Virus record (IMG/VR): IMGVR_UViG_3300014913_000009
Span: 25,971-89,970 of that record
Origin: a virus
Direction: 5' to 3' (one strand)
Length of the DNA stretch: 64,000 nucleotides
The notes under the pieces were generated by a model. That model saw only the letters and a program-made list of their open reading frames with translations. It was not told the origin of the DNA and did not search any database. Both the position numbers and the translations under genes were made by a program. This document shows, one piece after another, positions 27,062 to 50,115 of the stretch (its first letter is position 1; every line of letters starts with the position of its first letter).

Positions 27062-27112
27062 ATGGCCTGGCAGCCGTCATGGCTGCCAGGCTCTTTTTAT
27101 TATGACTACTGA
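27062..27112 (+). other. Possible 16-codon leader ORF through the terminator
   Basis: ATG 27062 opens MAWQPSWLPGSFYYDY and stops at TGA 27110, reading straight through the terminator hairpin and overlapping the start of the next gene by 11 bases. AGGA is only one base from this ATG, too close for an ideal site, so translation is doubtful. Confidence 0.25.
27065..27100 (+). terminator. Intrinsic terminator after the tail tube gene
   Basis: GCCTGGCAGCC (27065-27075) pairs perfectly with GGCTGCCAGGC (27081-27091) around GTCAT and is followed by TCTTTTTATT. The start codon of the next gene (27102) follows the T-tract at once, so that gene has no independent ribosome site outside the hairpin. Confidence 0.93.
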
Positions 27113-30215: not shown

Positions 30216-33200
30216 CCGATTATAGAGATGAATCAAGTACTTGGGAATCAACCCTAAAATGGGGAATGATTGGCATTGGTGCCGTTATGGGTGCTCGTGC
30301 TGCTTATCGTTATTCCCCTGCATTTCGTAAAGCCGCAATCGAAACTGCCGCGACTGCAGGTGATTTGTATCGATCGGCTGGAGTCCAAGCCAGAAAATAT
30401 GCATCCAGATGGTCAACAAGCGCAAGTCCCGCAAAACAAGCGAGTGCGTCAGCCCTTGAATACTTTGCTGGCATAAAACAGGGAGGTATGCCGGCAGCAT
30501 CAACAGTCCTCGAATCTGAAATGATTGAGTCCCTATCTCGTATTGATGTAATCCAATATAGCGACGATGCAATCGGCGATCTTAGATCTGCACTTGGCAG
30601 AAAATACGGGCAACCGATAGTAGGAGCGCCTAAAGGATATCGTCATATGACGGTACAAGACATCCTCACCAATGCACAAAAAGCCAAAAAGGGACATTAT
30701 GCAATCGGCGAGGGCGGCAGGATGATGACGGCAAAAGGTTATGAAAACCTTAGGAGCGCCGTACAATCCGGTGCCGTTGACACTGAATGGATATTCAATC
30801 AAGACATATTTCTTCGCGAAATGGATAATGGAAAATTCCTAATAAGAGATGCTCGATTAGTTAATCCTGCAAAAACAGTATCTCAGGCACTTCAAAGATC
30901 GCAAAAATTCCGCATATTGGGTATGAGCCCAGCCGACCCGTTAGTTCCAAGTTCATGGACAACAAAAACTGCATCGGATTTAATGAGTCCAGATATTCCG
31001 ATAAATCTTCGTGGCAGAGGGCCAACAAAAGTTGGTGGTGATTCTGTAATGCAAATTGGGGATAATGTATATAGCGTCCAAGGCAATCAAATGAAACGCG
31101 TAGGCAAAACCGACGCTCGTATATATACTAGCCCGAGATTGGTTAAGGAGCGTGCTGGACAAGCCGGTATGGGCGGTCAGTATTATGGACCAAAAGACAC
31201 CCAAAGAGCAGTTACCGCAAAAGAAAGAATTGCACAAGATCCCAATCGCTACAAAGGACCGATTGGGAAAGTCCGGAAATGGGCCGAATCCGGAAAAGGA
31301 TACAGAGGATTTGGAATCGGCGAAGGATATAATATTGGACCGCAATATAAACATGGGCAATCCATATTCGGTTTCGCCAGAGATTGGATGAATAAACTCC
31401 TCAATTACAAAACGGCAATCAATCTTAAAACGGGAGCAAGGGGCGCAAAAGCATTTGCCGAAGAGAGCGTAATTGACAAGGTTAAGGGTTTCTTCAAAAT
31501 CACTCCGGATAAAATGAAGAAAAATATGTATTGGGCATCCGAAGAAGAACTCGGAAACCTCACCCTCAAACAAATGAAGGATGCCGCGAATCTTCATGCA
31601 AGCACCCACACAACCATAGAGTCCGTCTCAACGCCGACAATGAGACTTCAGGGTAAATATCATACTGAAGTTAGGGATGTCGCTATGACGCCAGGTGAGG
31701 CTGTGGGGGCCTTTGGCAGAAAGTTCACAACATCCGCAACAAGGGTGTTTGAATGGGCAACGGGAATGGGAGTTAAGCCCGGCACCGCAGGACAAACAAT
31801 GCTTAGATTGGTGGCGAAGGGGGTCATCCCGACATGGCTATTGGTTGAAGCATTTAAGTATGGCGATTTTATGTCGGAAGAAATAACAGGCGTAAGTCCA
31901 ATAAAAATGGGGGCTTATGGCTATGCGGGGGCGCAAACTGCAAAGCAGGGAATGCTTAATCTATCCGGATTTTCAACACTTTCAAATGCCGCGGATGAAG
32001 CTACAGGTGGTTTTTGGTCATCGACCGGAGGGACAATATTAAGAACTGCCGGTATTTTTGGAGCAAGTCTGGCAATCGGCGCTCATCCAGCCGCGAGTAA
32101 AGCGACAAAAAAATGGGCTCCAAGATTAGGGCTCGGATTAGCAGCGTTGCAACTTACGGGATCTCCCGGTAAATCGGCATTTGATCAATGGGATGAATAC
32201 ACCGGAAATAAAATGGTGCCGATAAGAAGGGGAAGGGGTTGGCTCACTGGACCACAACCTTACGAAGGTGGAGAAGTTCAATATTATAGGAAGCATGCAG
32301 TAGCACAAATATTGGATGATAGCCAATATGAAAAGTTTGGCGGGAAACAAGCATATTTTGAAGACTTATCTTTATTGCCAACACCTCATAATTGGATGGG
32401 CGCGAAAAGAATATTGGATCCTTATGCATGGGAAAAGCGCACATATTACGATCAGCCGTACCCACTTAACAAAGGAATGTTTTCTGAAGTTCCAATAGCA
32501 GGACCACTCCTTGATCTTACTGCTGGCCGCATTCTTAAGCCAAGAGTAATGATGCATCAACAGGAAATCCAGAGGTGGCTCGATACGCCACAAATTCCGA
32601 GAGACCCCAAAATGACAATGATTGCAGATCAACTCAATATGCAATTACCCGTTACCGGAAGAGCCATTCCTAAATTCGGCGTAGCACAAGAAATCGGAAC
32701 GGCAATAAAGGGTGCAACAGATTTTATTGGTATGCCCGGATTTATGCTGAATGCACTTAAAGAAAAGGCAACAGGAAGTTCCGAATGGTTCCATGATGGC
32801 CCAGTATGGCAAACGCCAGACTATCAGGTATCTCAAGTAAGAAATTTCTTTGAGATGGAATGGGGCGGAATGCTTGGGGGATCAGAATTGTTCCGGCGTA
32901 TGTGGTCAAAAGATTCTCACGAAGTATCATTCGTTAATCCAATCCCCAATACAATGCCGGATTATATGCCCGGAAGTAGATCAATGTATGGAGATACTAA
33001 TTTCATCAATTTCTCCGAAGGTGATCCATTTTCAAAAATAAGAGCTCCTGGTGCTCGCAATCTCCACATGGCACTCAATCCTCATACGAGTAATTTTGAC
33101 AAATGGAGAATGCTCAAAGGGGTCGCCCCATTCTCAAGAGCTGCGAAATCATTCGAAGCGGGAGTTATTGGAGCTGGAGAAAATCAAGTATTCAATGATG

Positions 33201-34321
33201 CACAGCAATCCCAATTCGAAGATGTCCAGAGTCGTATGAATATGTATGATCCTTCGACCGCATGGGCAGGGGAAGAAGGTGGAAGTTCCGGATTCCAATC
33301 ATCATTACCTCATATTCCGTGGGTCAGCACAAAATTTATGGGCGCTCCATCACCAGAGGAACATTATAGAAAAATGGTAAGATATGGTTCTGATTACTGG
33401 GACTGGAAAAATCCTTATGATCAAATGCTGGATCCATACCTATCATACATGAGCACCCAAAACCCGGTATCTGCAGCTGGTAGTGGTGCATTACTAGGAT
33501 CAATCGCCGGATCAAGAGGCGCTGTTGTAGGAGCCGCTTATGGGGCGGTGTCTTCAATCTTTTCTGATGATAGTATTTCCAATAAAGAATCTCGCAGGGA
33601 ATTTACAGAAGATTATTTTGACAAAATGCAATATACCAAATTGCGCATGATGGAAGAACGCGCACTGGATATGAATAGAAGTGACCTTGTCAAAAAAATC
33701 CAAAATATGCAATCAAGCACAATGGTCGGATTGGATTATAGTCTGGACTCGGAAGAATTTGCATTAGCAGCCAAAAAAGCATTGCCATCAAAAGACAGGG
33801 GTTATCTAATGGCGCTTGCAAATTCGGGTATGGATACTTCGGAAATGCCAGAATATATGCATCCGATAATTGACAAGCTTCGTGGTCAGGGTAATCCTAA
33901 AATGAGTTATGCATCCAGAGATAGGATGGTCTCTGATTGGGTTGGAGAGAATGGCGGGATTCCCGGTGGAGAATGGGCTGGATGGGCTCCTGGCGTAGAT
34001 ATGCAAAAACTCAAAGCGGTTTCTGTTGCTGCTGATGGCGATAATATGCATGACTATGGATCTTATGAACCCGATGTAGAAATGGATGCCTATAGTTCTC
34101 CCTACTTAGATGCCATACAAAACTACGGGACAATTAGCAATCCAGACTTGCAAAATATGAGTAGGATGGTGTATAATAATATGGCTCATCTCCGCAAGTT
34201 GGGGATTGACAATGGGGGGGTTATGATTACCCCTTCATTTGGCAGTGGGCGGAGTCAATGGAATATTAATAGAGGGCGCGTAAATAGTGCCCGGCAATGG
34301 CGACAAAGAGGGATTTGGTAA
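30212..34321 (+). CDS. Giant virion protein, tape-measure position
   Basis: 1369 aa. It follows the chaperones with an ATGA overlap, the normal place of the tape measure. It opens with a membrane-like helix (LKWGMIGIGAVMGARAAYRY, 15-34), then a long basic, Gly-rich region; further hydrophobic stretches lie near 540, 612-630 (RTAGIFGASLAIGA) and 1087-1117 (GSGALLGSIAGSRGAVVGAA). A helical segment at about 1130-1230 (YTKLRMMEERALDMNRSDLV, MVGLDYSLDSEEFALAAKKA) precedes a loop-rich C terminus. It lacks the continuous coiled coil of many tape measures. It may be a tape measure or an ejected membrane-interacting protein; no enzyme motif was found. Confidence 0.5.
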   Translation: MTDYRDESSTWESTLKWGMIGIGAVMGARAAYRYSPAFRKAAIETAATAGDLYRSAGVQARKYASRWSTSASPAKQASASALEYFAGIKQGGMPAASTVLESEMIESLSRIDVIQYSDDAIGDLRSALGRKYGQPIVGAPKGYRHMTVQDILTNAQKAKKGHYAIGEGGRMMTAKGYENLRSAVQSGAVDTEWIFNQDIFLREMDNGKFLIRDARLVNPAKTVSQALQRSQKFRILGMSPADPLVPSSWTTKTASDLMSPDIPINLRGRGPTKVGGDSVMQIGDNVYSVQGNQMKRVGKTDARIYTSPRLVKERAGQAGMGGQYYGPKDTQRAVTAKERIAQDPNRYKGPIGKVRKWAESGKGYRGFGIGEGYNIGPQYKHGQSIFGFARDWMNKLLNYKTAINLKTGARGAKAFAEESVIDKVKGFFKITPDKMKKNMYWASEEELGNLTLKQMKDAANLHASTHTTIESVSTPTMRLQGKYHTEVRDVAMTPGEAVGAFGRKFTTSATRVFEWATGMGVKPGTAGQTMLRLVAKGVIPTWLLVEAFKYGDFMSEEITGVSPIKMGAYGYAGAQTAKQGMLNLSGFSTLSNAADEATGGFWSSTGGTILRTAGIFGASLAIGAHPAASKATKKWAPRLGLGLAALQLTGSPGKSAFDQWDEYTGNKMVPIRRGRGWLTGPQPYEGGEVQYYRKHAVAQILDDSQYEKFGGKQAYFEDLSLLPTPHNWMGAKRILDPYAWEKRTYYDQPYPLNKGMFSEVPIAGPLLDLTAGRILKPRVMMHQQEIQRWLDTPQIPRDPKMTMIADQLNMQLPVTGRAIPKFGVAQEIGTAIKGATDFIGMPGFMLNALKEKATGSSEWFHDGPVWQTPDYQVSQVRNFFEMEWGGMLGGSELFRRMWSKDSHEVSFVNPIPNTMPDYMPGSRSMYGDTNFINFSEGDPFSKIRAPGARNLHMALNPHTSNFDKWRMLKGVAPFSRAAKSFEAGVIGAGENQVFNDAQQSQFEDVQSRMNMYDPSTAWAGEEGGSSGFQSSLPHIPWVSTKFMGAPSPEEHYRKMVRYGSDYWDWKNPYDQMLDPYLSYMSTQNPVSAAGSGALLGSIAGSRGAVVGAAYGAVSSIFSDDSISNKESRREFTEDYFDKMQYTKLRMMEERALDMNRSDLVKKIQNMQSSTMVGLDYSLDSEEFALAAKKALPSKDRGYLMALANSGMDTSEMPEYMHPIIDKLRGQGNPKMSYASRDRMVSDWVGENGGIPGGEWAGWAPGVDMQKLKAVSVAADGDNMHDYGSYEPDVEMDAYSSPYLDAIQNYGTISNPDLQNMSRMVYNNMAHLRKLGIDNGGVMITPSFGSGRSQWNINRGRVNSARQWRQRGIW

Positions 34322-37300
34322 ATGCCCAGAAGAAAGAAAAAAGGAATTGTCAAACCATTGTTGGGAGCAGCTGCATTAGGCGGTGCTGGATACGGGTTTT
34401 ATTATAGTCTTAAAAATCCAATCAAAAGTGCTGCGGGAGAAGTAGCCGCAACAAAACCTAGTCAAGCATATTCGGGAAAAGGTCCGATAGATAGAACCCC
34501 TGAATACAAAGGAAAGCCAATAATGATTGGTGAAAATCCAATCCCGCCAGGCGGACTTAATTTACGAACCGAATCAGAATTTGCAAAATTGTCCGCGGAA
34601 CATCTACAAAAAGTCGACGATGCAACACTACGAATGCTAAAGCAAAATACAGGACAATCCAATAGTTATGGTGGCATCTTTTCTGCTGCAGAACAACAAG
34701 GATTGGGAGTAGATATTACCAGGACTGGCGGAACAATCAACGTAGAAATACAAGGACTAAAAGGTCCAACACAAGTAGTGCAACTTCCAGCCCAACCAAG
34801 AGGAGGCGGAAAAGCAACCTTCGGTCTGCGCAGATATAATGCACCAACCTTTATTGTTGGCGAAAGAGGTGCGGAAAGAATAGGGCATGTTCAGGATGCA
34901 ATTGAAGAAAGTATTTTTAATGCAATAAAAGACAAGAAAAATCTTACTCCAACCCAATTCGCCGATGTGATACAAAACGCAAGACAGGAAGTATTTGATA
35001 TATTGCCGGCCAGCACCAATACGGATTATCGCGGATTTGGGCAAACAATCGAAAGTACCAGAATGTCCAATCGTATTGTTGGAACGAGACTTCAAAGGGA
35101 ATTAAGTACACTTGACAAAATCCACGGAACCGGAGTGCAGGCAGAAGCGGCTAGACGCGGATTCAGAGGAATTAAAACACGAGCAGATTTATATGGTGCG
35201 GTTATCTCTGATTATTGGCAGGGAATGTCTGATGACGTATTAAAGAATGTGGGAATATCGACCAATAGAACTTCGCCTGAATTTTACAGACAAGTAATGT
35301 CGATGTATGACAATACTAAAGGTGGAAATATGATTAAGGGGATTGGACATAGATCGGTCATGGGTAAGTCCGCAATTGTTGGAACCCCACTTGACAAAGT
35401 ATTACATGAAGGTGGACGTATTTTAAGAAGTGGAAATCTTGTCAATCCAGAAAGTGGACAAATTGCAAAAACATGGAATGGAATTAAAGATGGAATGATA
35501 TCCAACTTCCCTGCTGGACCAGAGGGAATACGAGCATTAAATACCGGAGCCAATAATAGGCTGATTGGAACAACCAGCCGTGCAGCATTTATCGTTGATC
35601 CGAAAGCAGCGGCAGTACTTGGTTTTGATCCGTTCGAATCCGGCGGATCATTTAGAGTTTCCAAAATGCAAAAAGACGTTCTTACACAAGGTATTCATAC
35701 AAGGTATAATCTTGATGTTCGACCAGGATCTCCAGGTGCTCCAAAAGGAATTGATCTCGCCATAAAAAAACAAAAGATTGTCAGGTCGGGAAACAGAGGG
35801 AAATATGACAAGTGGATTGGCGGGCTTTCGCAGAAGGAACAACGTATTGTTGGCGGATTCGATGATCCTTTGATGACATTTGGTAAAGGACAACTCGTTG
35901 GATCGGGGTCAATTGAATTCATCGAAGATGGGGCGACAAGATCAGTCTCAAGCCGCAATATAAGGACAAGAGGTACTTATGATGTTACAAACATAGGATA
36001 CAATGCCATTGATGATACTCTTTCAATACAAGGGCATATGCGTGCCTCAACGGCGGCATTAACGATAGGAGGAAGTCATGCAAGTATGAATCCGCATACA
36101 TTTTCAGCAAGCAAGCTAGGCGATGCTATGAGCGGAGGGAATGTACATATACTTGGATCGTGGACAGATCTTAAAAAATGGGATCAAATGGGAGTGCTTT
36201 TTGATGACCTTGCAGTACAGATCGAACAAGGGGGAGGAAATGCCGTGAAAGCATTTTCAGACCTCAAAACAATGAATCTAAAAACATACAACCAGACTGT
36301 TAAAAAATTTGGGCTTGAAAGCAAAATAGATTATATATCCAAAAAAGGAGAGATAAGACTCAAGACGACAACAAGAGATGCGAAAGAAATCGCATTAGCT
36401 GCTGGTTATACGGAGGCTCAAGCGGCTGGAATAACAGGGCAAATAGAAATGGCAAATCTTGCATCTAAGGTTACGATTGGAGGAGAGGCATCATTCTATT
36501 CTTCGAAGGGAGTGTGGTCAAATGCATATCAAGAAGGTACATCATTGGCACATAGGCGGCTTGGAAAACTCAATGAAATTCAGAGTGTATTACAAAGAGG
36601 TGATGTCGAAGAAGCCAAGCGAATGATTAGAAATATTGGAGGAGATAAAGGAAAAGATATATTCGCATCCGAAAGAAAAGGATATGGCGAAGCATTTGGC
36701 AAACTTGGACAAAAAAATATAGACGACAGATCAATACTGCTCAATAGAACAAGAGGACTTATTCAAAGTGCAGAAAAAGATATTAATGTTGGACTTAGCA
36801 AAATGAATACTATTTCAAATCTTAAAATGGGATTTGATGAATCTATCATGCTTGGACTTACAGCAAACAAATCATACAAGACATTAAGTAAAATCATACA
36901 AGGAGAAATGGTCAAACAATCAGGTTCTGCTGGCAGAGAATTAAGAGCATACATGGGGCAGATGGGAATGGGGACTCAAGGCAATTGGGGTATCGCCAAT
37001 GTCGGAGCGCTTCAAACAAAAAGCGGGCCATTGACGAGGGTGAAAATTGGAAGTAGCGAACTCAAAGAACTTGGCAGTATTGCAAGAAATTTAGAAAAAC
37101 AATTATCCGATGGCAGTCCAATCACACAAGAAATGTTCGACAGTGTAAATAAAAAATTTAATGATGCTCTTGGAAGGGTTGGTGTTGCTCCAGGAGAATC
37201 AATGGGTGGATTTCTACTTGAAACAAATGGGATGGAATTACCAGTTGCCATTGGAAGTAATCCGGTAAAAGTCGGAGGACAACAAGGGCAAATATATATA

Positions 37301-39391
37301 CCAGGCATTAATGAGGCGGTTCCTCAAAACCAAATGTTCCAACCCGGTGGATATTCAAAAAACAAAATACTTTTAAGAAAACTCAAACTTTATCAGCACC
37401 TTGGCATGTATCCAAATGAAGCAATAGTTGGGAAAAGAGCAATGCCGGGGCTTGCCGAAAATTGGAGATTGGGAACTGGCAAAGCAATGGGGGATTTATA
37501 TGATGAGTTGAATGTAATGTCCACTTCAAAAAAGGGTGGGGGCAGAAGAATAATGGGGCAAGAATGGAGAGCAGAAGCATCAATTTATTCTCAGGCAATT
37601 GGACAAGGACAAATTGATATACAGGATAGAATGATGGCATTAAGCGGATCAGAGAGACAGCGAATACAGGGACTAAAGGGGACGCAGCAAATAGAAGCAC
37701 TTGACGACGCATTAGCAAATACAATATTCATATCCAAAGAGCAGGCAAAACTTATGCCCGATGATATTTATCAAGCCATCAAATCCGGCAAAGGATACGG
37801 AATCACAGGACGATGGCCAATAGTATCTCCTGGTGGCATTGGAGTTACGCGTTTTGCTATCGCTGAAAGTTTGCATGGAAATGTCGCAGGAGTTAGTTCT
37901 GCTGGACTAATGAGATTTGCCGGTGATGTAGATATGGATAAAGTCGCAGCATTTGTTGGTCGATTTGAAGGAAATGCAGAAGCACAAAAAGCATTAGAAG
38001 AAGCATATAGTTATACACTCAAACAGAATCAGATGGTCGGCAAATATATTAATAATCGTATAAACGATATGAATATCGACGATATTTCAAATGAATTTCT
38101 TGCCGATTTACAGAAGTCATATAAAAAAGATTTTGGGACACAGTGGGATGACCTTATAAAAGAAACAGGAAGTGCTGAAGGAGCACTAAGAAAAGCATTA
38201 TCATCGCGCGCTGCTACACAAACAATGACTGGTGGAATTACGAATAAACTTAGACAGCAATTTATGTTTCTTGCGGAAGGTGGAGCAGATGATCTTGTTG
38301 CCCAAACTGCTGCAGATGTTATGGGATTGTCAATAATAGAATCACCTATTATGGCAAGAAAGTCAGGAACAGGATCTCTTGTTGGAGAAGAATTAATACA
38401 AATGATGGAGGCTGGAGATTCCGATGCTCTTGCGAGAAAAATCAGAGATGTTGGAGTTGCCAAAAACCTGACTGGAGAACAATTATCTCAATTAACTGGA
38501 GAGCAATCTGCATATTATCAAAATCTAGCCAAGCAGACAAAAGTTGGTGCAGCACAAGAAGGATTCGCCTGGGGTGAAGTTGCAAGACAAGAAGGTGATG
38601 ACTTTTTGGCAATGGCACAAAAGGGGAGTGGGGCAAAAGTTGGGCAAGGATATCAAGATGTGGCAGAACTTCTTGTTCGGACTAGCAAAGAATCGCAGGA
38701 AATATTCAGAGGATCAGAGAAATTTATCAACAAAGTCAGACTATCCTTGGACACTCTTGATCCAGAAGAATTCCCCGTATTCCTTCAACAAATTGCCAGC
38801 GATGCAGAAAAAACATCCCCTCTACAAAGACAAATGGCTGCGGCGATGATATCTCAAGATGATGAAATGATTAAAGCCCTCTCTGGCTATGAGCAAGGAA
38901 TGACAAAAGTCGTTGATACAATATCACCTTCAATGGACGATATGTTGGAATCCGCGACAAGAGCGGGAGTTGGGAAAGATGCTGAATCAATGCTCAATAA
39001 GATTGCACAAACAAAGGTGGGAGAAGCAATCCAAAAAGCAATCCAAAATCATCCGGGAAAAATGGTTGCTGCTGGAGCAGCCGCAGTTGTCGGGTTGTAT
39101 GCTTTGTCTCATATGTTTGGCTCGTCACCGCCAGCACCACCATCATACGAAGATGGTCAGCCAGGCGGCCGCAGTGGCACTGGCGATAGGCCGGCATATT
39201 TAAGGGGCGACACTCAACAACAAGGGCGTAATTTTGGATATAATACAATTATCGAAGGCAATACAGAAAGCACCCAGCATATAAGGTCATTCGCCCAGAA
39301 GGGACAAATGTCAATCAGGGACAATTCGATGTCCGACATGCAATTTCGGCATGCTATGGGACAAGCATCTACTAGTAAGTTTGGATACTAA
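34322..39391 (+). CDS. Giant virion protein with RNA polymerase-like catalytic core
   Basis: 1689 aa. The N terminus is basic plus a hydrophobic helix (9-32); a second hydrophobic helix is at about 1581-1597 (MVAAGAAAVVGLYALSHM), and the tail is Pro/Gln/Gly-rich. In between, residues 1136-1240 resemble the second double-psi beta-barrel of beta-prime RNA polymerase: IFISKEQAKLMPDD, GYGITGRWPIVSPGGIGV (R1164-x-P) and, 38 residues later, AGDVDMDKVAAFVG (D1202, D1204, D1206), followed by AEAQKALEEAY as in bacterial beta-prime. GGITNKLRQQF (about 1304) and ESPIMARK (about 1340) follow at places where single-chain viral polymerases keep conserved blocks. Gly of DxDGD is Met here. A beta-type barrel with paired lysines could not be placed. 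It abuts its neighbours without gaps. Confidence 0.5.
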   Translation: MPRRKKKGIVKPLLGAAALGGAGYGFYYSLKNPIKSAAGEVAATKPSQAYSGKGPIDRTPEYKGKPIMIGENPIPPGGLNLRTESEFAKLSAEHLQKVDDATLRMLKQNTGQSNSYGGIFSAAEQQGLGVDITRTGGTINVEIQGLKGPTQVVQLPAQPRGGGKATFGLRRYNAPTFIVGERGAERIGHVQDAIEESIFNAIKDKKNLTPTQFADVIQNARQEVFDILPASTNTDYRGFGQTIESTRMSNRIVGTRLQRELSTLDKIHGTGVQAEAARRGFRGIKTRADLYGAVISDYWQGMSDDVLKNVGISTNRTSPEFYRQVMSMYDNTKGGNMIKGIGHRSVMGKSAIVGTPLDKVLHEGGRILRSGNLVNPESGQIAKTWNGIKDGMISNFPAGPEGIRALNTGANNRLIGTTSRAAFIVDPKAAAVLGFDPFESGGSFRVSKMQKDVLTQGIHTRYNLDVRPGSPGAPKGIDLAIKKQKIVRSGNRGKYDKWIGGLSQKEQRIVGGFDDPLMTFGKGQLVGSGSIEFIEDGATRSVSSRNIRTRGTYDVTNIGYNAIDDTLSIQGHMRASTAALTIGGSHASMNPHTFSASKLGDAMSGGNVHILGSWTDLKKWDQMGVLFDDLAVQIEQGGGNAVKAFSDLKTMNLKTYNQTVKKFGLESKIDYISKKGEIRLKTTTRDAKEIALAAGYTEAQAAGITGQIEMANLASKVTIGGEASFYSSKGVWSNAYQEGTSLAHRRLGKLNEIQSVLQRGDVEEAKRMIRNIGGDKGKDIFASERKGYGEAFGKLGQKNIDDRSILLNRTRGLIQSAEKDINVGLSKMNTISNLKMGFDESIMLGLTANKSYKTLSKIIQGEMVKQSGSAGRELRAYMGQMGMGTQGNWGIANVGALQTKSGPLTRVKIGSSELKELGSIARNLEKQLSDGSPITQEMFDSVNKKFNDALGRVGVAPGESMGGFLLETNGMELPVAIGSNPVKVGGQQGQIYIPGINEAVPQNQMFQPGGYSKNKILLRKLKLYQHLGMYPNEAIVGKRAMPGLAENWRLGTGKAMGDLYDELNVMSTSKKGGGRRIMGQEWRAEASIYSQAIGQGQIDIQDRMMALSGSERQRIQGLKGTQQIEALDDALANTIFISKEQAKLMPDDIYQAIKSGKGYGITGRWPIVSPGGIGVTRFAIAESLHGNVAGVSSAGLMRFAGDVDMDKVAAFVGRFEGNAEAQKALEEAYSYTLKQNQMVGKYINNRINDMNIDDISNEFLADLQKSYKKDFGTQWDDLIKETGSAEGALRKALSSRAATQTMTGGITNKLRQQFMFLAEGGADDLVAQTAADVMGLSIIESPIMARKSGTGSLVGEELIQMMEAGDSDALARKIRDVGVAKNLTGEQLSQLTGEQSAYYQNLAKQTKVGAAQEGFAWGEVARQEGDDFLAMAQKGSGAKVGQGYQDVAELLVRTSKESQEIFRGSEKFINKVRLSLDTLDPEEFPVFLQQIASDAEKTSPLQRQMAAAMISQDDEMIKALSGYEQGMTKVVDTISPSMDDMLESATRAGVGKDAESMLNKIAQTKVGEAIQKAIQNHPGKMVAAGAAAVVGLYALSHMFGSSPPAPPSYEDGQPGGRSGTGDRPAYLRGDTQQQGRNFGYNTIIEGNTESTQHIRSFAQKGQMSIRDNSMSDMQFRHAMGQASTSKFGY

Positions 39392-42300
39392 TGAAAAAAA
39401 ATATAAAAATCGGACATATCCCATTGACTGTTGATCCTCAAAATATCAACATTACCAATACATCGTATAATTCTGCCGCTGTCGGATTAAGGTCCAATAG
39501 TGCACAAGTTGTTCCAACGGGATATTCCGACTTCTCGGTGATGATAAATCTTATATTCCCCAGCATTGAAGATATTAATAATAAGTTACGTCCGATAATT
39601 GCCATAAGCAAAGCACTTCCTTTTGTTCCCGTCAGGTCGGAAGATATTGCCGATGCTTTAGTATTGGGAAGCGAACTTGAAGGAGAACAAACTCAAAAAG
39701 ACGATAGGCAATTATATGAAGATCAAGTTAAGGTAGCATTCTATCAATGGGCGGAAATAGTATATCGCTATTATATATTGCCGGCAGTGAGAATAAAGAT
39801 TCAGAATGAAGATAAAAATCCTATAGACATTCTAAAAAAAGCCATCAAAGTACAATACGAAGATAGATTTCTTCCCATAGATGAAGTTTTGTATAATGAC
39901 CGAAATTCCGGCACAATTATCGCGGATAATATTACTCAAAGAAAATGGTATTGGAATTATGTTCTCCTTGAGGGCGAAAATGCAATTGACAAAAATGTAA
40001 ATTACACAAAACCACAAGTTTATGAATTGCTGGGAGACGATACTGCTCCCGATATTGATATTCAGCAGCAGCCAAAATATACATTTATAGCGTCCATTTC
40101 CGGACCCGACAAAATTATTGACGGAGACACCATAACGGTAACCCCGAGTGGTCCGTTGGGACCCCATATTGTTCGCGTAACAAATTCCGAAGATGTCAAT
40201 ATTCGCATGGTTGGATATGATTCATTTGAAACTATATCAGCATTAGGCAAAAAGCCCGATGCGAATGTTCCGGAAGATGCATTATTATGGCGGAATGGAC
40301 AAGAAGCACATTCAACAACACATGTAGATAGTGCATCGGCCGTAGATTATGCTCTCGAGTGTAAAAAGAAATTAAAAGAATTTATATTCGGAACAGGAAC
40401 CTCCCCAATAAATGTAAGAGTCGATGTATTCGATACTGATGGCTTTGATCGAGTTGTTGCAATGATCACTCCGACAGAAGGTCCAAACTCAGGCAAATCG
40501 GCCAATCATGCAATGTTGAGACAGGGACTTGCCATTCCCTATGTGGTGCAAAAAGATGATGCGGCAATATCAGATTCGTCATTTTTACTTGCAGCAAAAG
40601 AAGCCGCTGATAGCAATGTCGGATTGTGGAATGATAATTTATGGCAAGGATATTATTTTAAAGTATCAAAAAGATATCCAGGTCAAAACTTTAAAAAGAT
40701 AACATCAAACGAACTCGACATCGTCACACCAAACAAAACCAGAGGAATTGTCACACCGCATGACTTCCGTAGATTTGGCAATGATGGACCGCAAAGAGCA
40801 CATATTGGACAGCGATTATATTCGAATATAGGAGATACATCAGGATCACCGGCAAATAGAAATACGGGTCCAGATGGATATATGAGAGATGGAGAATCAT
40901 CAGAATCATTTGATTTTACACCAGAGACATTCGAGAGTGTGGAAGCAATGGATAGTGGTGTATTGGGTGTGCGAAAAAATAATTATTATTGGGATTTCAT
41001 TCCAGGTGGATTGCCAAGACGATGGATGCCCAGCGAATTGCATCAAAAACTTGAAGAGGCAATAATAAGCGTTAAGAGAGAATCTGAAATTCGACTAAGA
41101 GGGCCAGCACACATTTTTGCATCAATGGCCGATTCACTGTACGATATGGCTATAGACTTATCGAAAGGTACAATCGAATCATATGGCAGAATCAGAAGTA
41201 AGCATTACCCAGGGGATTATGTGCCATTATCATTTATTGGCTATCAATTAAGAAGTGTCCCTGAATTACCAGATGCAATACAAGCAACTCTTCAATTTAG
41301 ATATTTTAATCATACCCCATATGTACCGATATTTGCATTCATGGGAACGAGTCTTAACGAAGACGATATATTGATGCCAAATCCATCTGTCGCAGAAATA
41401 GATATTGCGCGAAATGCGGCATTCCTAATATATCTGGAAGATAATTATTTAACAGATTCTATGGACAATCGACAATCCGGCAGATATGTAAGACCATACA
41501 CTCATGCAGAAGATATTTTGCTTGAATACCAAACTCCAACCTTAACTACAGAGGCAAAAGATAAGGAGACTGATGATGTCGCATCCGAAAGAACACTTAC
41601 AAGAGGATATGGTTTCTTCTCAAGCAAGGCAATCATAAAGGCTGGGAATATTACTGACGGCGACAAAGCATCATATCAAGTTGTCATTCCAAATACACTT
41701 CTTATCGGAGCATCAATAAGTCTGCAAAATAATATTCCGCAAATTCCACTGGAAGGACTGGAATATCCAACAGCACAATATACAGGAAGAGGACAGGGAA
41801 CAGCACAATTAGTACTGCAGACAAATGACAGATCCGCCATAAGAGCATTACATCATGTTCGCTCATTATCTCAGGAGAGTGCCAGATTGGCAGATAGTTA
41901 TGATTTGAGAAATGCCACAATATCATTCGTACATCCACTTCTCAATATTACAGGAATGCATACATTCGTTATTGATAATATTCAAGAAGATAACGATCCA
42001 AATAATCCCGGTTTATTTAATATTACAATCGACTTAATGGAATCCTCATCGCGATATTCAGTAAGAGAAAAACTCAATCTTGTGAAAATCGGAACAAGCG
42101 AAGATATTATGGAGGATGAATTGGTTGATCAGGTTATTGAGGAAATGTTAGTTGGCCCACCCGATGTAAAAGAAGGGTTAATAAAAGAATTTGTTGGAAA
42201 TGTAAAACGCAAGGAAGGAGATAATCCTTGGTTTTCTACAATAGGGACAAGAAGAGAATCGCTCGAAAGACAAACGAAGTATACAACACTTAAGTATGAC

Positions 42301-45300
42301 GGTTATAGCTATGACTCGATTGGATTAGACAGAGGCTGGATCAAAAAAGACATTGACAGCCAGTATCTCGATACTGGCCAATCAATATTGTTCGGATTAC
42401 TTCCATTCCTATTTGTGGAGGGTGATCCAATGACCCCCCATGATAGTTATTTGTCTCCAAACGGAGACAAATGGAAAGAAATGGGGATCCTTCTTCAAAA
42501 AGAGGGAAAGAGAGATACCAATGACAATAGAGGCAAGAAAGTAAATAAGAAGATTTATGATAAAATCGAAGACAAACTCATTTCGTTGGTAGGCATGAGA
42601 AGCAAGCAAGAAGAATTGATAATCCGGAATTGGCTAAAAGACAATTTGTGGAAAAGAGATACCTATCAAGAAATGCTATATACTACAACTACGGCAGACA
42701 TTGTCAAAAGTCAATTTAATCTTATTGGCGGAATTACATCGAGAGATGCTGCAGCCGGAAGTCTTGCTGCGACATCCGCTATCGCACTCGCACTTCAATA
42801 TGGAGTTCTTACATTTGGTGCTGCCGGAGCGGCAGTCTCATCTGGAGCTTTTGTGGTAATTATAGGAAGTGTTGTGTCAATATATAAATCTGTCGAAGGA
42901 GGATTTCAACTTATTGGCAAAAAGGATCGCATTGATTCTAAATTCACAACTGCTTACCCTAGTCGATATCCCGACGGCAGATTGTCTCATCTTGCTCCAC
43001 CTCGCTCTGGAAGTGATTGGTATTCTGCATTCTATAATGCAATGACTAATTATCAATATGGAGATTATTGTTCGAAGGTCGGACAAGACGTTGCAAGTTC
43101 TCAGTTGGCTCCGAAAAGAGAAATTGATACTGATACCGAAACATCATCAATAATTTATGGAAAAGACAAAATTACTATACATCCATATTGGGCAAGACAT
43201 GCGTGGGGAGCATTATCAACAGCACCCCAAATGATGGATAGTCAAATAACCGAATTGTGGAATCAAACCAAAAATTATACAAGCGTCGATATAAAATATG
43301 TCTTGCGATTTTTATTCAAATTATCCCTCAAATTTGAATCATTTAAAGCACATTTTCTTTCCGCGGCAACGAAACATCTTCCCCATCTCGCCAACAATCT
43401 TGATGGCAGTATTATGACTTCCGATGAACCGGATATGTATTACGATTTGAATTTGCCAACATATAATGAAATTTACGGTCAATTCCATGTGCCGAATATT
43501 GATGCTCGCAAAAGGCTATATAGGGGAGCAATAAGACTTGTAGAAATTGGCAGAGAAATAAACAAGAAGATGGGAGGATGGAAAAAACCATATCCAGATG
43601 CAACATATCCATTCAAAGCATTGTCAAGAATAGAAGTTACACCTCTTGAAAAAGACATAGATGTCCCAAATCCAATGGAATTAATCAATGGAATTACTGA
43701 AACATTTAATATGGTAGGCGATGTATGGGAAGTTGAAGAGCCATCAAAAATAGAAAATGTATTCAAAGATGGAGATAATGCCAAAAAATGGTATGATAAT
43801 ATTTTGTGGAGAGGACATGCAAATGCCGATAACGAACTTCAAGAAAAAATTGACAATTACAATGGTCCTCCAGCGAGAGATCAGGCAAGATTACAACTTG
43901 CATGGATGGGAATTATAGATGATATAAAACGCATCATGTCAAGTTATAATAAAGAAGAAAATACCCCCGAAGAATTATTGCCATCATTCCGCGATATGGG
44001 AATTCGTGGCCCACACGCATTTAATCAGATGGCTAAGTGCAGAGGGGGAAATGATACGGTAAATCCCGGATGGATGTACTATTCTCCGAAGGTTGATATT
44101 TGGGGACAAACAGAAACAACAATTGATGATATGCAAAAATTTGCATCAGAAATATCAAGCATTGGTCCAGACGCAGAAGACACGGGAAGCACTAAAGAAC
44201 TTCCTTTAAGAATCAATAGAGAATCTACGCTTACAAACGTATGGATGGGGAGGGGACCCGCTTCAAAAAAAACAAGCGATGTTGCGTCGCCAGACAGTCA
44301 TGTCGTCCAAAACAAAGCTGGAACGCCGGTATCACAATCTCGCGGCGACGCAGCAACAAAAAAAGGAGGGCATGGTCAAGTTGCGGAAAAAAATGCACAA
44401 TTAAAAAAATTAGCCAGAAATATGGGATATCAAGATGTCAATCTTAATCCTGATGTCCGTCACATCGCAAAAACTAACGTTGAAAATAATCCTCCAAACA
44501 AAGGCAACAAAGACAAACCTGCCCTGATATCAGATTCGAAAAAACTTGTCTCGCCAGGAATAGCATCATCGCCCGCATATCCTGGGGGCAATTTTGGGAC
44601 CCGCGGAGAACAAAAAAAACACATGAAAAGGGTATTTGAAGCACAACCAAAATATCCATTTAATATGCGATTTGCCTATCCTGCAGTAGCAATGTATTTT
44701 GTAGAAGAAGACAATGAGACCTGGGGATATTTCGATGATTACTATAGATACGATTCGATAGTCAGTGTGGAGGTGATCCGTGATAAACAAATCACCGATT
44801 TGGCGGTAATCACATTAACCAATATGACTGGCATATTATCCAACGCACTCAATGAAGATCGCGTGAATGGCAAGCCCGGCAAGGTAATTAAATCAGACGA
44901 TACAACAAGAGTCGAGGCATGGGACAATACTAACGACACATGGAAAAAAGGCAAGAAGGCAGAGTTTTGGGAAGATCAAGAAGATCAATTATTATCATTC
45001 CGAATTAAACAGGGAACACGCATTATTCTTAAAATGGGATATTCCACAAAAGGAATTGATTTGCCGACAATATTTACAGGGCAAGTCGCAGAAATAAGCG
45101 CTGGACCAATCACAACAATCATTTGTCAGGCATATGACTATCAATTGGCAGAGCCATTATATGAAGAATGGGGAAGAGCAGAACAAGAATTTCCCGGGAT
45201 CATTTGCGACATGCTGGCTAAAGTAAATTATTTCGGCGGCTATGCATTCTATCGCGATAGACTTGAAGGGCAAACACAAGGCAGGGGGGCAGATCAAGGC

Positions 45301-47730
45301 AATATAGATATATGCAACGGTCGAAATTGGCTCAACTCAACTCAAGGCGATAATCTCTATATAGAACATTATGATTATTGGGAAGCATTCAATTCACTGG
45401 GGACGGTCGGTGATGATTGGTATTGCGGCGGTCCAATGCTTGAAAACCTATATAGTATGCAACGATATAAGCCTCATGACGCGATGGCAGTATTGCCATA
45501 TGATGGTCGGTCCACATTATATTTTGGGCCGACTGACGGAGCGTATATGTGCACCTCAAGGGCTGCTAGCGTACTGAGGGTGTGGGCAACAAGAAGAGAG
45601 ATGTATTCTGAATTAAAATCGAGCGGAAAATGGATTGCATTTGATGGCGCATTAAAAAAAGAAGGAGATGCACAATCAGATTATGCCGAAGAAATATCCG
45701 ATGCATACGAAAGTGCTGAGCATACAACAAGAAAAAGAGGAATAAAAGAATTGCAACAGGATGTAGTGGATAAAGAAGAAGGGGTGTCATTATATGCGAT
45801 TCCAGATGAGGCACTTCCGATGTTTCCCGTTTCAGTTCAAGATGACAGTTCCCTCGCCATGACAACAGCGATAAATACGAAATATCTTGGAAGAGCAGAA
45901 ATAAACAAAAGTAAGTTCGACAAATTTTATGCCAATGAAAGAATAGATGAAATTATAGACCATATAAAGGAATGTCCTCCTGAAATATTACAAGCACTTC
46001 TTAATGACCTTATTTTATATGCCATAATTAATTACAAGTTACTTGAACCGGGAATGGATTATCCAAGCGTCGTAGCATTATCTCCAACCCGTTACAACAA
46101 TGAAATATCTAGCGGAATGACAGGAGATAATGCGACAGAAGAAATAACCTTATCTACTATTGCAGAGCGAAAAAATACTCAAGATGTAAAAATAGAATGG
46201 GTAACATCATCAATGTCTGCCGCAACGAAAAAGGCAAAGCAATTAACTGAAACGTCAGAACATGATTATGGAATTGTTAAAAACGATATATCTGATGTTT
46301 ATGTTTTTTATACATATAAAGAGGCAAGTCTGAAGGAAACAAATGATTCGGGAGAAAAGATTAAAAAATACCTCACAGAAGTAGTCAGGGCGATAAAAGA
46401 TGATAAGAAGAGTACTCCATCTCCAAACAAATTTATGAAAGAACAGGGATCTGTTGCACGACTTGCAAATGAAAGATGCAATAACTCGAATATGATTGTT
46501 AGCAGTCTTGTTGTAAGTATGGATGGGACTTGGGGCTGTCAATATTTTCCAGCGCAAGTAGATTTAAAATTATTGGGCTTTATTAATTATGAATCGGCAT
46601 CTGGTCGTGCGATACCATTGTGGAATCTTATTATAGGATCGCTTATTCCATATCTGGATATCCTTCCAACGTTCGTTGCCAACAATCCAGAAAGCGCGAT
46701 GGCAAGAACTTATAACGCACTACAATCATCCGATACATCGAACCTCCCCCCAAATATGATGCCATTCAGAGATCACCATCTCGCTAAAAGCGGATACAAT
46801 CTTGTTTCAAATCAGATAGTTGCATCGAGATCTCATATGGGAAATATTGCTGTAGTTGAATCACCCGGAGGAGAACCAGACATCGAAAGCAGTGATGGTG
46901 GAAAAACAATAGAGATTGGCAAAGCCAAATATATCATAAGGGCAAGCGTCACACACGAAGATGAATTGGTGTATCCCATCAGCCAATATTTCTATGATAT
47001 AAATGCATATCATCAGGGTGAGTCATGGCAAGTAGCAATGACTTGTCTCGGAGATGCTTTGCGCGAAATGTATCAGGGACAACTCGTAATATTGGGCGAT
47101 CCAAAAGTAAAGCCCCACGATATCGTCAATCTTATTGATAGCAAAAATATGATGAATGGTGCATTTGAGGTAAAAAGAGTTGTCCATCATTTTTCGCATG
47201 AAAGCGGATATTTAACAACGATTAATCCGCATATGATTGTACATGTTAATCGGGATACAGACTACTGGACCTCATTGGGTGTAAGCGCAGCAATGTTCGC
47301 TACAACAGTTGGTGTTACTGTAGGAGTGGGGCTCTTGACTGGAGGCGTAGGATCAGCCGCATTTGCTGCTGGAGCGATGGGCGGATTGGCTGGTATGTCC
47401 GGACTCCCAACCGGCAGTATTCTGGGCATCTCATTCCCATGGATAAGTGGGCAGGCCAAGATCGGACCGTCTCGACATAATCCTGTACGCATTTCCCCAT
47501 TAGTATATAAAGGAGAACCTTATACAGTAGGGCTTGAAGGATGGGAGAAATATGCGTATAATCCTAATAAGAGTGGCGGAAGTTATGCTGTAGAACAACT
47601 ACAGAAAAAAATTGATGCTGTCCCCGAAGGAATAGATGCAATTAACAAAAACATATCGCGATATTGGAATGCTTACAATTCATTTAGAATTGGCGATATG
47701 GATTACAATGAAGGGAATGTGGTAGAATGA
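39391..47730 (+). CDS. Giant baseplate hub protein with inserted SNase domain
   Basis: 2779 aa, the largest gene. Residues 40-130 (YSDFSVMINLIFPSIEDINN, LRPIIAISKALPFVP) and about 610-665 (PLSFIGYQLRSVPELPDAIQ, LQFRYFNHTPYVP) are beta domains. Residues 228-416 are a staphylococcal-nuclease domain: KIIDGDTITV (D244), NIRMVGYDSFET (R272, D277, E280), DTDGFDRVVAM (R354) and HAMLRQGLAIPYV. A hydrophobic segment is at 1111-1160. Residues 1750-2500 look like a tail hub of the gp27/gpD class (FRIKQGTRIILKMGY, TIFTGQVAEISAGP, TTIICQAYDYQLAEPL). A Gly/Ala hydrophobic stretch is at about 2630-2665. It overlaps its neighbours by 1 and 4 bases. Confidence 0.7.
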   Translation: MKKNIKIGHIPLTVDPQNINITNTSYNSAAVGLRSNSAQVVPTGYSDFSVMINLIFPSIEDINNKLRPIIAISKALPFVPVRSEDIADALVLGSELEGEQTQKDDRQLYEDQVKVAFYQWAEIVYRYYILPAVRIKIQNEDKNPIDILKKAIKVQYEDRFLPIDEVLYNDRNSGTIIADNITQRKWYWNYVLLEGENAIDKNVNYTKPQVYELLGDDTAPDIDIQQQPKYTFIASISGPDKIIDGDTITVTPSGPLGPHIVRVTNSEDVNIRMVGYDSFETISALGKKPDANVPEDALLWRNGQEAHSTTHVDSASAVDYALECKKKLKEFIFGTGTSPINVRVDVFDTDGFDRVVAMITPTEGPNSGKSANHAMLRQGLAIPYVVQKDDAAISDSSFLLAAKEAADSNVGLWNDNLWQGYYFKVSKRYPGQNFKKITSNELDIVTPNKTRGIVTPHDFRRFGNDGPQRAHIGQRLYSNIGDTSGSPANRNTGPDGYMRDGESSESFDFTPETFESVEAMDSGVLGVRKNNYYWDFIPGGLPRRWMPSELHQKLEEAIISVKRESEIRLRGPAHIFASMADSLYDMAIDLSKGTIESYGRIRSKHYPGDYVPLSFIGYQLRSVPELPDAIQATLQFRYFNHTPYVPIFAFMGTSLNEDDILMPNPSVAEIDIARNAAFLIYLEDNYLTDSMDNRQSGRYVRPYTHAEDILLEYQTPTLTTEAKDKETDDVASERTLTRGYGFFSSKAIIKAGNITDGDKASYQVVIPNTLLIGASISLQNNIPQIPLEGLEYPTAQYTGRGQGTAQLVLQTNDRSAIRALHHVRSLSQESARLADSYDLRNATISFVHPLLNITGMHTFVIDNIQEDNDPNNPGLFNITIDLMESSSRYSVREKLNLVKIGTSEDIMEDELVDQVIEEMLVGPPDVKEGLIKEFVGNVKRKEGDNPWFSTIGTRRESLERQTKYTTLKYDGYSYDSIGLDRGWIKKDIDSQYLDTGQSILFGLLPFLFVEGDPMTPHDSYLSPNGDKWKEMGILLQKEGKRDTNDNRGKKVNKKIYDKIEDKLISLVGMRSKQEELIIRNWLKDNLWKRDTYQEMLYTTTTADIVKSQFNLIGGITSRDAAAGSLAATSAIALALQYGVLTFGAAGAAVSSGAFVVIIGSVVSIYKSVEGGFQLIGKKDRIDSKFTTAYPSRYPDGRLSHLAPPRSGSDWYSAFYNAMTNYQYGDYCSKVGQDVASSQLAPKREIDTDTETSSIIYGKDKITIHPYWARHAWGALSTAPQMMDSQITELWNQTKNYTSVDIKYVLRFLFKLSLKFESFKAHFLSAATKHLPHLANNLDGSIMTSDEPDMYYDLNLPTYNEIYGQFHVPNIDARKRLYRGAIRLVEIGREINKKMGGWKKPYPDATYPFKALSRIEVTPLEKDIDVPNPMELINGITETFNMVGDVWEVEEPSKIENVFKDGDNAKKWYDNILWRGHANADNELQEKIDNYNGPPARDQARLQLAWMGIIDDIKRIMSSYNKEENTPEELLPSFRDMGIRGPHAFNQMAKCRGGNDTVNPGWMYYSPKVDIWGQTETTIDDMQKFASEISSIGPDAEDTGSTKELPLRINRESTLTNVWMGRGPASKKTSDVASPDSHVVQNKAGTPVSQSRGDAATKKGGHGQVAEKNAQLKKLARNMGYQDVNLNPDVRHIAKTNVENNPPNKGNKDKPALISDSKKLVSPGIASSPAYPGGNFGTRGEQKKHMKRVFEAQPKYPFNMRFAYPAVAMYFVEEDNETWGYFDDYYRYDSIVSVEVIRDKQITDLAVITLTNMTGILSNALNEDRVNGKPGKVIKSDDTTRVEAWDNTNDTWKKGKKAEFWEDQEDQLLSFRIKQGTRIILKMGYSTKGIDLPTIFTGQVAEISAGPITTIICQAYDYQLAEPLYEEWGRAEQEFPGIICDMLAKVNYFGGYAFYRDRLEGQTQGRGADQGNIDICNGRNWLNSTQGDNLYIEHYDYWEAFNSLGTVGDDWYCGGPMLENLYSMQRYKPHDAMAVLPYDGRSTLYFGPTDGAYMCTSRAASVLRVWATRREMYSELKSSGKWIAFDGALKKEGDAQSDYAEEISDAYESAEHTTRKRGIKELQQDVVDKEEGVSLYAIPDEALPMFPVSVQDDSSLAMTTAINTKYLGRAEINKSKFDKFYANERIDEIIDHIKECPPEILQALLNDLILYAIINYKLLEPGMDYPSVVALSPTRYNNEISSGMTGDNATEEITLSTIAERKNTQDVKIEWVTSSMSAATKKAKQLTETSEHDYGIVKNDISDVYVFYTYKEASLKETNDSGEKIKKYLTEVVRAIKDDKKSTPSPNKFMKEQGSVARLANERCNNSNMIVSSLVVSMDGTWGCQYFPAQVDLKLLGFINYESASGRAIPLWNLIIGSLIPYLDILPTFVANNPESAMARTYNALQSSDTSNLPPNMMPFRDHHLAKSGYNLVSNQIVASRSHMGNIAVVESPGGEPDIESSDGGKTIEIGKAKYIIRASVTHEDELVYPISQYFYDINAYHQGESWQVAMTCLGDALREMYQGQLVILGDPKVKPHDIVNLIDSKNMMNGAFEVKRVVHHFSHESGYLTTINPHMIVHVNRDTDYWTSLGVSAAMFATTVGVTVGVGLLTGGVGSAAFAAGAMGGLAGMSGLPTGSILGISFPWISGQAKIGPSRHNPVRISPLVYKGEPYTVGLEGWEKYAYNPNKSGGSYAVEQLQKKIDAVPEGIDAINKNISRYWNAYNSFRIGDMDYNEGNVVE
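40072..40638 (+). other. SNase (thermonuclease-like) domain within the hub gene
   Basis: By position, D21, R35, D40, E43 and R87 of staphylococcal nuclease correspond to D244, R272, D277, E280 and R354, with the same R-x4-D-x2-E spacing; T41 is Ser. The end reads LLAAKEAADSNVGLW, like the final helix of secreted thermonucleases (A...A...GLW). All calcium-binding and catalytic residues that I can map are present, so the domain is probably active. Confidence 0.85.
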
Positions 47731-48506: not shown

Positions 48507-48949
48507 TGTCAACTTTTACAGATTTGGATTTTGCCATAGATGATAATGGGAATTTGTCAACACGCAATGGGGATATTGCCAGGCATGGATCTCTTGACAG
48601 TATGGCGAAAACCATTGAATGGCGACTCAAAACATCCAGACAAGAATGGAGAGGAGTCAATCCTTTTATTGTCGCTGGACTGGATGAATTCAGAGGACAT
48701 CGAAACACAAAAGAAACAGGTGAGTCGATGAAAGTCCGAATAGAAAACGCTTTATCAGCGGATCTATTTATCCATCCAACAAGATTGCAAGTAGATGTGG
48801 TCCCAATTAACGCCGAAGAAGTTCGCGTATTTATCAAAATAAACAGATTCAGAGCACTGGATATTGATGGCTCGGTAGATATAGAATATTCATATCAATT
48901 TAATTTCAACGAAGGGGATATAATATCCCTTACTGGAGGCACAAGATAA
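48506..48949 (+). CDS. Baseplate wedge protein, gp25-like
   Basis: 147 aa. The order LDFAIDDNGNLSTRNGDIAR, SMAKTIEWRLKTSRQEW, then VRIENALSADLFIHPTRLQV and DVVPINAEEVRVFIKI is that of the gp25/W/XkdS family, which nucleates sheath assembly on the baseplate. Length fits the family. TAATG overlap with the previous gene; overlaps the next by one base. GGAGG precedes the ATG. Confidence 0.8.
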   Translation: MSTFTDLDFAIDDNGNLSTRNGDIARHGSLDSMAKTIEWRLKTSRQEWRGVNPFIVAGLDEFRGHRNTKETGESMKVRIENALSADLFIHPTRLQVDVVPINAEEVRVFIKINRFRALDIDGSVDIEYSYQFNFNEGDIISLTGGTR

Positions 48950-50115
48950 TGACAACAAATGAACTTATAGATTTTGAGGGTTCTGATGTCATTCGAGAAC
49001 GAATGATAAAAAGAGCTATTTCGGCTAATTTACCGGGAATATCTGAAGGGCAAACATTAAGAAATTTATGTTCCTTATTTGCCAACGAATTGCAGAGTCA
49101 ACACAACAAGACTATGTATGCAATGGCAAATTCAACTCCGCTAAATGCTTCTGGGCCATATCTCGATATGATTGGAGAATCAATTTTCGGGATAGTAAGA
49201 CATGGGGCTATCTCGGCCAATACGACAGAGGCAGATAGAAACATAATATTTAGCGTTACCAATGGCCCTCTTTCCGATTACCTCACAACCTCGTCCAACG
49301 GAAGACCCTATATCCCTCAGGATACGGTCATCACAGATGGCAATGGAAACGATTACAAAATATCGTCCAACATCTATGTATCGCAAACAGCCACAGAAGT
49401 ATTTGTTCCGGCACGAGCAACAATAAGTGGGAGATCTCGTAACGTTCCTGCTAATGCACTGACAATGCATTCTATTGACACAAGAATCCAGTGTACCAAT
49501 CGCTATGATATTTCCAATGGGCAAGATGTAGAATCAGACCAGAATTATAGATATAGAGTAATGAATGCACACTTAGCATCCCAAAGCGGGAACAGGGCAA
49601 GCATTGAAAATGCAATTGCCGGAGTTCCGGGAATAAGTAGATTTACTGTTAATGAAAATTTTAACGGGCCAGGAACTGTCGAAATAATTTTGGTGCCAAT
49701 TGGGAATAAGCTTCCCCCATCGACAAAAAGAAGTGCACAAATTGCCGTACAAAGTGTATCCCCTGCATCGTCAATTATTATTGTTAGAGAACCATTATAT
49801 GTTGAATATGAAATGGCATTAACCATGAGTCGCCGAAACAAAATCAATAATACCGCAAGTATGATTCGGAACAATACGATTAGTGCATTGTCGACATATT
49901 TCAACGCAGTTCCAATGGGAGGGCAATTGGATACCAACTCCATGATAGCGACATTGCTTGGCGGGCTATCTCAATATGGTGTAGCGGATATAAAAATCAC
50001 CTGCTTCCTGTTAAATCAACAAGCAATCAAGCCGGGCATTGTCAAATTGGCAAAGAAAGATTTGCTAGTGCCATCTTCATTTGTCGCAGAACCGATTAAG
50101 GTATTAGTAGCATGA
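48949..50115 (+). CDS. Baseplate J-like protein (gp6-like)
   Basis: 388 aa. Baseplate_J-type features: a helical N terminus ending NASGPYLDMIGESIFGIVR, a beta region with VFVPARATISGRSRNVPANA, then DISNGQDVESDQNYRYRVMN, SGNRASIENAIAGVPGISRF and TVEIILVPIGNKLPP, the usual J-protein signature. It forms the wedge ring with the gp25-like protein coded just upstream. The final 40 residues carry KPGIVKLAKKDLLVPSSF. Confidence 0.88.
   Translation: MTTNELIDFEGSDVIRERMIKRAISANLPGISEGQTLRNLCSLFANELQSQHNKTMYAMANSTPLNASGPYLDMIGESIFGIVRHGAISANTTEADRNIIFSVTNGPLSDYLTTSSNGRPYIPQDTVITDGNGNDYKISSNIYVSQTATEVFVPARATISGRSRNVPANALTMHSIDTRIQCTNRYDISNGQDVESDQNYRYRVMNAHLASQSGNRASIENAIAGVPGISRFTVNENFNGPGTVEIILVPIGNKLPPSTKRSAQIAVQSVSPASSIIIVREPLYVEYEMALTMSRRNKINNTASMIRNNTISALSTYFNAVPMGGQLDTNSMIATLLGGLSQYGVADIKITCFLLNQQAIKPGIVKLAKKDLLVPSSFVAEPIKVLVA

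Follow-up and report, generated by a model that had tools for sequence, protein, structure and literature searches.

Why should a bacteriophage carry a nuclease at the tip of its tail? The question is raised by the window (i.e. the whole 64,000-nucleotide stretch of viral DNA analysed here), in which a staphylococcal nuclease (SNase) domain lies within the baseplate hub gene. The enzymes familiar from tail hubs are lysozymes and peptidases, and the original prediction regarded a nuclease at this place as unexpected. That part did not hold, as precedents exist. The hub of Bacillus phage 0305phi8-36, gp147, has been described as a gp27 homologue of increased size that bears domains for cell-wall degradation, and its homologue in BtI1 as carrying an N-terminal staphylococcal nuclease domain instead, whose utility was called obscure (Hardies et al. 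2007, PMC2147016). The same work, from which we take the gp27 homology of 0305phi8-36-type hubs, proposed that hub enzymatic domains were captured from stand-alone genes, and found 55 virion protein genes of 0305phi8-36 by mass spectrometry (PMC2147016). Further instances are the hub of Acinetobacter phage ME3 and two plasmid-borne SNase hubs named 'nuclease' by NCBI. Full-text literature searches, with subscription journals mostly outside their scope, returned no later treatment of the hub SNase, and the ME3 genome announcement does not mention a nuclease.

In this work, we examined the window hub and its relatives. New here is the recurrence of the SNase in most of the sampled hubs, at three positions and in phages of both Gram-positive and Gram-negative hosts. 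The curiosity of 2007 thereby becomes a testable question.

Retrieval of hub sequences

Patterns built from the window SNase alone or from the whole hub alone returned no close relatives in IMG/VR, nor did the window SNase pattern in INPHARED; relatives surfaced only through profiles of aligned hubs. Hub-core profiles yielded 29 IMG/VR loci and three loci from GTDB contigs, and one more hub (L069) came from further scans. The plasmid collection provided nine plasmid-borne hubs, five of which were read. Once duplicates and truncated copies had been removed, 33 hubs with a complete N-terminus were counted. They were classified as SNase-bearing (the window, L036, L069, ME3, L033, MTATph1, KLEB27-3, L007, L031, L025, L023, L010, L011, L012, L014, L015, L019, L020, L021, L022, Cytobacillus pN497 and B. 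velezensis pAD3) or SNase-less (L008, L009, L013, L016, L017, L029, L030, L067, two Paenibacillus plasmids and one B. licheniformis plasmid). A 2202-aa ORF on contig C153 of G025 was considered as a second SNase hub and rejected, as it is not a hub by profile.

The hub gene and its setting

The hub is encoded by a single uninterrupted ORF of 2779 aa on the + strand (39391-47730), without any internal stop. A tblastn search with this protein retrieved Moorella phage MTATph1, Bacillus phage KLEB27-3 and Acinetobacter phage ME3, and both blastp and profile comparison established the homology of its C-terminal core with the annotated hubs of ME3 and KLEB27-3 and with the MTATph1 hub. The ME3 record annotates the matching gene (ME3_37) as a baseplate hub and as a homologue of the Bacillus phage 0305phi8-36 hub. 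The conserved core, delimited by a match to hub-core profile A2, covers residues 1721-2655 (44551-47355, + strand). Compared with the PDB with a view to direct homology with T4 gp27 or P2 gpD, this profile gave only a weak match, to a 'Peptidase C51 domain-containing protein / ORF56' (E 0.0014, 52 positions).

The neighbouring genes are those of a tail cluster. A tail sheath gene lies on the + strand at 24911-26365 (phrog_16991 tail sheath, E 4.7e-50; tblastn match to the MTATph1 tail sheath), from which we take the tail to be contractile, and a baseplate wedge gene of the Baseplate_J family lies at 48949-50115, also on the + strand (PF04865, E 6.3e-25; phrog_6). The order of sheath, tube, long ORFs (30212-39391), hub and wedge J is that expected of the 0305phi8-36/BtI1 type, and among the relatives the hub is likewise preceded by a long ORF (L005-L006) and followed by small genes and a wedge protein (L004-L005). 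The setting is thus the contractile-tail baseplate of the Bacillus phage 0305phi8-36 lineage, and the host is bacterial. A hub of the same type (L069) lies on a contig of 231,647 bases, so that the record from which the window is taken probably represents only part of a far larger genome.

Several other genes of the window deserve mention. The adjacent paralogues at 26379-27017 and 27102-27764, both matching phrog_9206 (labelled major head protein), are related to the KLEB27-3 tail tube protein and are probably two tail tube proteins. Upstream of the hub, the ORFs at 30212-34321 and 34322-39391 encode proteins of 1369 and 1689 aa without significant Pfam or PHROG match, one of which may be the tape measure protein. 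An 856-aa protein (60830-63400), with weak matches to the YadA head repeat and to phage cement that both fall below the cut-off, is possibly a fibre or decoration protein.

The SNase domain of the window hub

The original prediction placed an SNase domain at hub residues 228-416 (40072-40638, + strand), with the equivalents of D21, R35, D40, E43 and R87 all kept and no stop codon around it, and each of these statements stands. Pfam PF00565 scores 28.8 bits on the hub against a gathering cut-off of 21 (E 1.8e-6, best stretch 317-415), and in a search of the 89,970-base viral record this was the sole PF00565 match (34.8 bits). The five residues correspond to D246 (40126-40128), R272 (40204-40206), D277 (40219-40221), E280 (40228-40230) and R354 (40450-40452), all on the + strand, the D40-E43 feature spanning 40219-40230. 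Structure prediction had been set beforehand as a check, and it recovered the fold: an AlphaFold model of residues 220-430, built from eight hub SNases, reached a mean pLDDT of 68.8 and a pTM of 0.73, and its best Foldseek matches were staphylococcal nuclease (E 2.5e-6, TM 0.68 by target length). In the PDB, the window sequence on its own matched nothing; the profile of the eight hub SNases retrieved thermonucleases there without recourse to structure (E 6.5e-12). Residues 228-416 are confirmed as an SNase domain by the Pfam score together with the predicted fold and the full set of catalytic residues. A chance match or a dead domain was rejected on the basis of the fold and of the invariance of the catalytic residues in relatives. 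A recent import of the domain was also rejected, its GC3 (0.307) being equal to that of the hub gene (0.305).

The domain resembles staphylococcal nuclease (thermonuclease, PF00565) in fold and catalytic residues. It differs in that E43 and the first helix are separated by a long loop, and in being part of a predicted 2779-aa virion protein, whereas staphylococcal nuclease is a free secreted enzyme.

Position of the SNase within the hub

The domain had also been predicted to be inserted in the hub, and comparison with other hubs bears this out. The first part of a conserved N-terminal hub domain occupies residues 1-90 (39391-39660, + strand), with blastp matches to residues 406-508 of KLEB27-3, 23-110 of L017 and 21-105 of L008, and the match to other hubs resumes from about residue 606-613. 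As window residues 5-90 and 613-656 match stretches that adjoin in KLEB27-3 (406-508 and 513-556), the N-terminal hub domain is split by an inserted stretch of about 515 residues, which contains the SNase. This insertion (about residues 91-605; 39661-41205, + strand, boundaries approximate) is common to L036 and L069, in which the layout of the window hub is repeated. These two hubs, found on contigs of 88,896 and 231,647 bases, respectively, are identical to the window in hub type, insertion site and catalytic residues; they differ in the length of the insertion and are only 27-28 % identical to the window hub overall.

The other SNase hubs read in detail have a different arrangement. In KLEB27-3, MTATph1, L007, L031, L025, L023 and two phage-plasmids, the SNase forms an N-terminal extension. 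KLEB27-3, MTATph1 and the B. velezensis and Cytobacillus phage-plasmids share with the window the hub core and an SNase with the DGDT, R, E and R motifs, and differ from it in that the SNase stands ahead of the hub; the D40 position, occupied by D in the window, is Q in KLEB27-3 and N in MTATph1. In ME3 and L033 the SNase is located mid-hub. The ME3 hub (2329 aa), of the same lineage and with all catalytic residues in its SNase, carries the domain at about residues 1096-1250, with an M23 peptidase after it; in the window hub, by contrast, Pfam recognises no hydrolase.

Among described systems, BtI1 (RBTH_07687, in a prophage-like region of B. thuringiensis israelensis) is by its published description a gp147 homologue with an SNase, N-terminal to the hub (PMC2147016). 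This arrangement is not that of the window, where residues 228-416 come after the first part of the N-terminal domain. The window hub is thus a positional variant of the SNase-bearing hub first noted in 2007. The 0305phi8-36 hub gp147, which likewise has enzymatic domains on a gp27-like core, differs in having transglycosylase, NLP and M23 domains in place of the SNase (PMC2147016).

Distribution among related hubs

The original prediction called for a search for hubs with and without the insert, and both kinds were found. An SNase is present in 22 of the 33 distinct hubs, a proportion that describes a sample clustered by descent and hence no natural frequency, and it occurs at three positions (N-terminal, inside the N-terminal domain and mid-protein). 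Presence and absence cluster on the hub tree, the SNase-less group being largely one clade. Given this sizeable SNase-less set, the domain is not essential to the hub as such. A single clade of hub SNases was not rejected (p-AU 0.30) in a comparison of trees whose branches are long and whose sampling of cellular sequences is narrow.

We also searched for stand-alone SNases that might compensate in SNase-less phages. This idea received no support, as none was found with PF00565 or the hub SNase profiles in viral records G002, G003, G007, G010-G012, G020 and G021, some of which are fragments. A separate 135-aa stand-alone SNase is encoded in the record of L025 (G019:C1:180017-180340), in addition to the hub SNase of that phage.

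Conservation of the catalytic site

Of the 22 hub SNases, 21 retain D21, R35, E43 and R87, the exception being the degenerate L023; six of the 22 have N or Q at the D40 position. Loss of the catalytic Arg or Glu in close homologues, which would have spoken against the prediction, was not seen: L036 and L069, the two nearest relatives, keep the full catalytic set at 27-28 % overall identity. Within the window-type hubs (the window, L036 and L069), all five catalytic residues are among the 27 invariant of 189 positions; the probability of this by chance for five given positions is 4e-5, a figure that is somewhat circular in that these motifs also help to recognise the domain. The mid-hub SNases of ME3 and L033 retain the catalytic residues as well.

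Nine N-terminal SNases (L010, L011, L012, L014, L015 and L019-L022; e.g. L021:4691-5803) are split by a long insertion that separates the half with E43 from the half with R87. Those scanned with Pfam fall below the PF00565 cut-off, and the structural model is weak (pLDDT 57.9), its top Foldseek matches being mostly staphylococcal nuclease with E values that are not significant. We counted these nine domains as SNases because their catalytic columns are invariant: of 371 positions only 15 do not vary, and these include D19, D21, T22, R35, E43 and R87; the chance of D21, R35, E43 and R87 all being invariant is 2e-6.

A different fate is seen in an SNase fused to a tail-tube-like protein (L073:2488-3663, on contig C153 of G025; 39.6 % identity to the KLEB27-3 'tail tube protein'), which appears to belong to the same phage as the SNase-less hub L067 (contig DUOT01000172.1); both contigs are 37,674 bases long. 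The positions of D21, R35, D40, E43 and R87 are there occupied by N, K, R, D and H, i.e. the whole catalytic set is lost, so the SNase fold can persist without catalysis in this lineage. Judged from their sequences, hub SNases are not normally in this state, and their catalytic residues are under selection. Such residue conservation makes catalytic competence of the hub SNase well supported, and the domain probably functions as an enzyme on the virion.

Relation to peptidoglycan hydrolases

SNase-less hubs usually carry a C-terminal peptidoglycan hydrolase, and SNase hubs are mostly without one. Among the SNase-less hubs scanned (L008, L013, L017, L030 and those of the Paenibacillus and B. licheniformis plasmids), all but L030 have a C-terminal glucosaminidase or lysozyme domain. 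Only one of the 14 scanned SNase hubs has a hydrolase, an M23 peptidase; an M23 peptidase is also present in the ME3 hub, and the MTATph1 hub gave a sub-threshold VanY match. Two SNase phage-plasmids have separate hydrolase genes directly downstream of the hub, a likeness to BtI1, whose peptidoglycan hydrolases are also encoded in separate genes just downstream (PMC2147016). The inverse pattern and these separate downstream genes lead us to place the SNase among the envelope-attack functions. As SNase presence and absence are clustered on the tree, the inverse association rests on few independent events.

Possible roles of the hub nuclease

The reading we favour, with a probability of about 0.4, is that the hub SNase is catalytically competent, is a permanent part of the virion and acts as a tail-tip nuclease outside the host cytoplasm at the start of infection. 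Enzymes of the SNase family are Ca2+-dependent and need millimolar Ca2+, levels that the cytosol does not offer. Because of this need, the hub SNase would be silent in the cytosol and active outside it. During assembly, low cytosolic Ca2+ would keep the nuclease inactive and spare the phage DNA; displayed at the tail tip, it would then work during attachment and penetration, at the cell surface, in the wall or in the periplasm, where Ca2+ is expected to be millimolar, and would cut extracellular or envelope-bound DNA or RNA in the path of the tail. We infer here the enzymatic activity and its Ca2+ dependence, as well as the place and time of action and the substrate. The roles suggested in the original prediction include degradation of host nucleic acid, clearing of extracellular DNA in biofilm and superinfection exclusion, and the sequence does not discriminate between them; nor does it set extracellular DNA apart from other possible substrates. 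If true, an envelope-acting tail-tip nuclease would be a function undescribed for phage tail tips in the literature searched. More tentatively, hub SNases may constitute a class of virion nucleases common across this lineage of giant phages; having reached at least three hub positions by capture or movement, they would act at the envelope, to clear DNA or to compete with other phages, as a normal stage of the infection process.

Conserved catalytic residues and a location at the tip of a contractile tail would also suit an effector-like enzyme, delivered by the tube tip into the host cell for early degradation of host DNA or RNA. The Ca2+ requirement argues against this, since the cytosol lacks millimolar levels; a non-specific nuclease in the entry channel would moreover endanger the phage's own DNA, the hub has a structural core, and no release site was found. 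We consider such delivery rather unlikely. The entry-site position and the retained nuclease site would equally fit destruction of the DNA of competing or superinfecting phages, or of phage DNA freed at the cell surface; with no specific sequence support and few hub copies expected per virion, we hold this to be quite unlikely. A separate reading, anti-phage defence, received no support, PADLOC matches being weak only.

The two remaining explanations dispense with nucleic acid as the substrate. OB folds are frequent in tail hubs, and the degenerate sites of L023 and of the tail-tube fusion would agree with the SNase fold being a mere structural module (a spacer or contact) without enzymatic role. 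Such a role would not be expected to preserve R35, E43 and R87, and all hub SNases but one keep the catalytic residues despite little other identity; a purely structural role is therefore disfavoured by the conservation data and appears distinctly unlikely. The inverse occurrence with hub peptidoglycan hydrolases would be accounted for if the SNase were a phosphodiesterase acting on a non-nucleic envelope polymer (e.g. teichoic acid) as a substitute for a wall hydrolase. However, teichoic acid is absent from the Gram-negative host of ME3, a phage in which the SNase also occurs, there beside an M23 peptidase. To our knowledge no SNase has such a substrate, and we regard this as the least probable of the explanations considered.

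Phage-plasmids and cultured phages

Plasmids of Cytobacillus, Bacillus velezensis, Paenibacillus and B. licheniformis (L102-L106) carry baseplate genes of this phage lineage. The nine hub-bearing plasmid records are 201-240 kb long and non-mobilizable, and the enzymatic domains of their hubs vary from one plasmid to another; these large plasmids look like phage-plasmids. Together with the cultured phages KLEB27-3 and MTATph1, the Bacillus phage-plasmids make the question of the tail-tip nuclease approachable.
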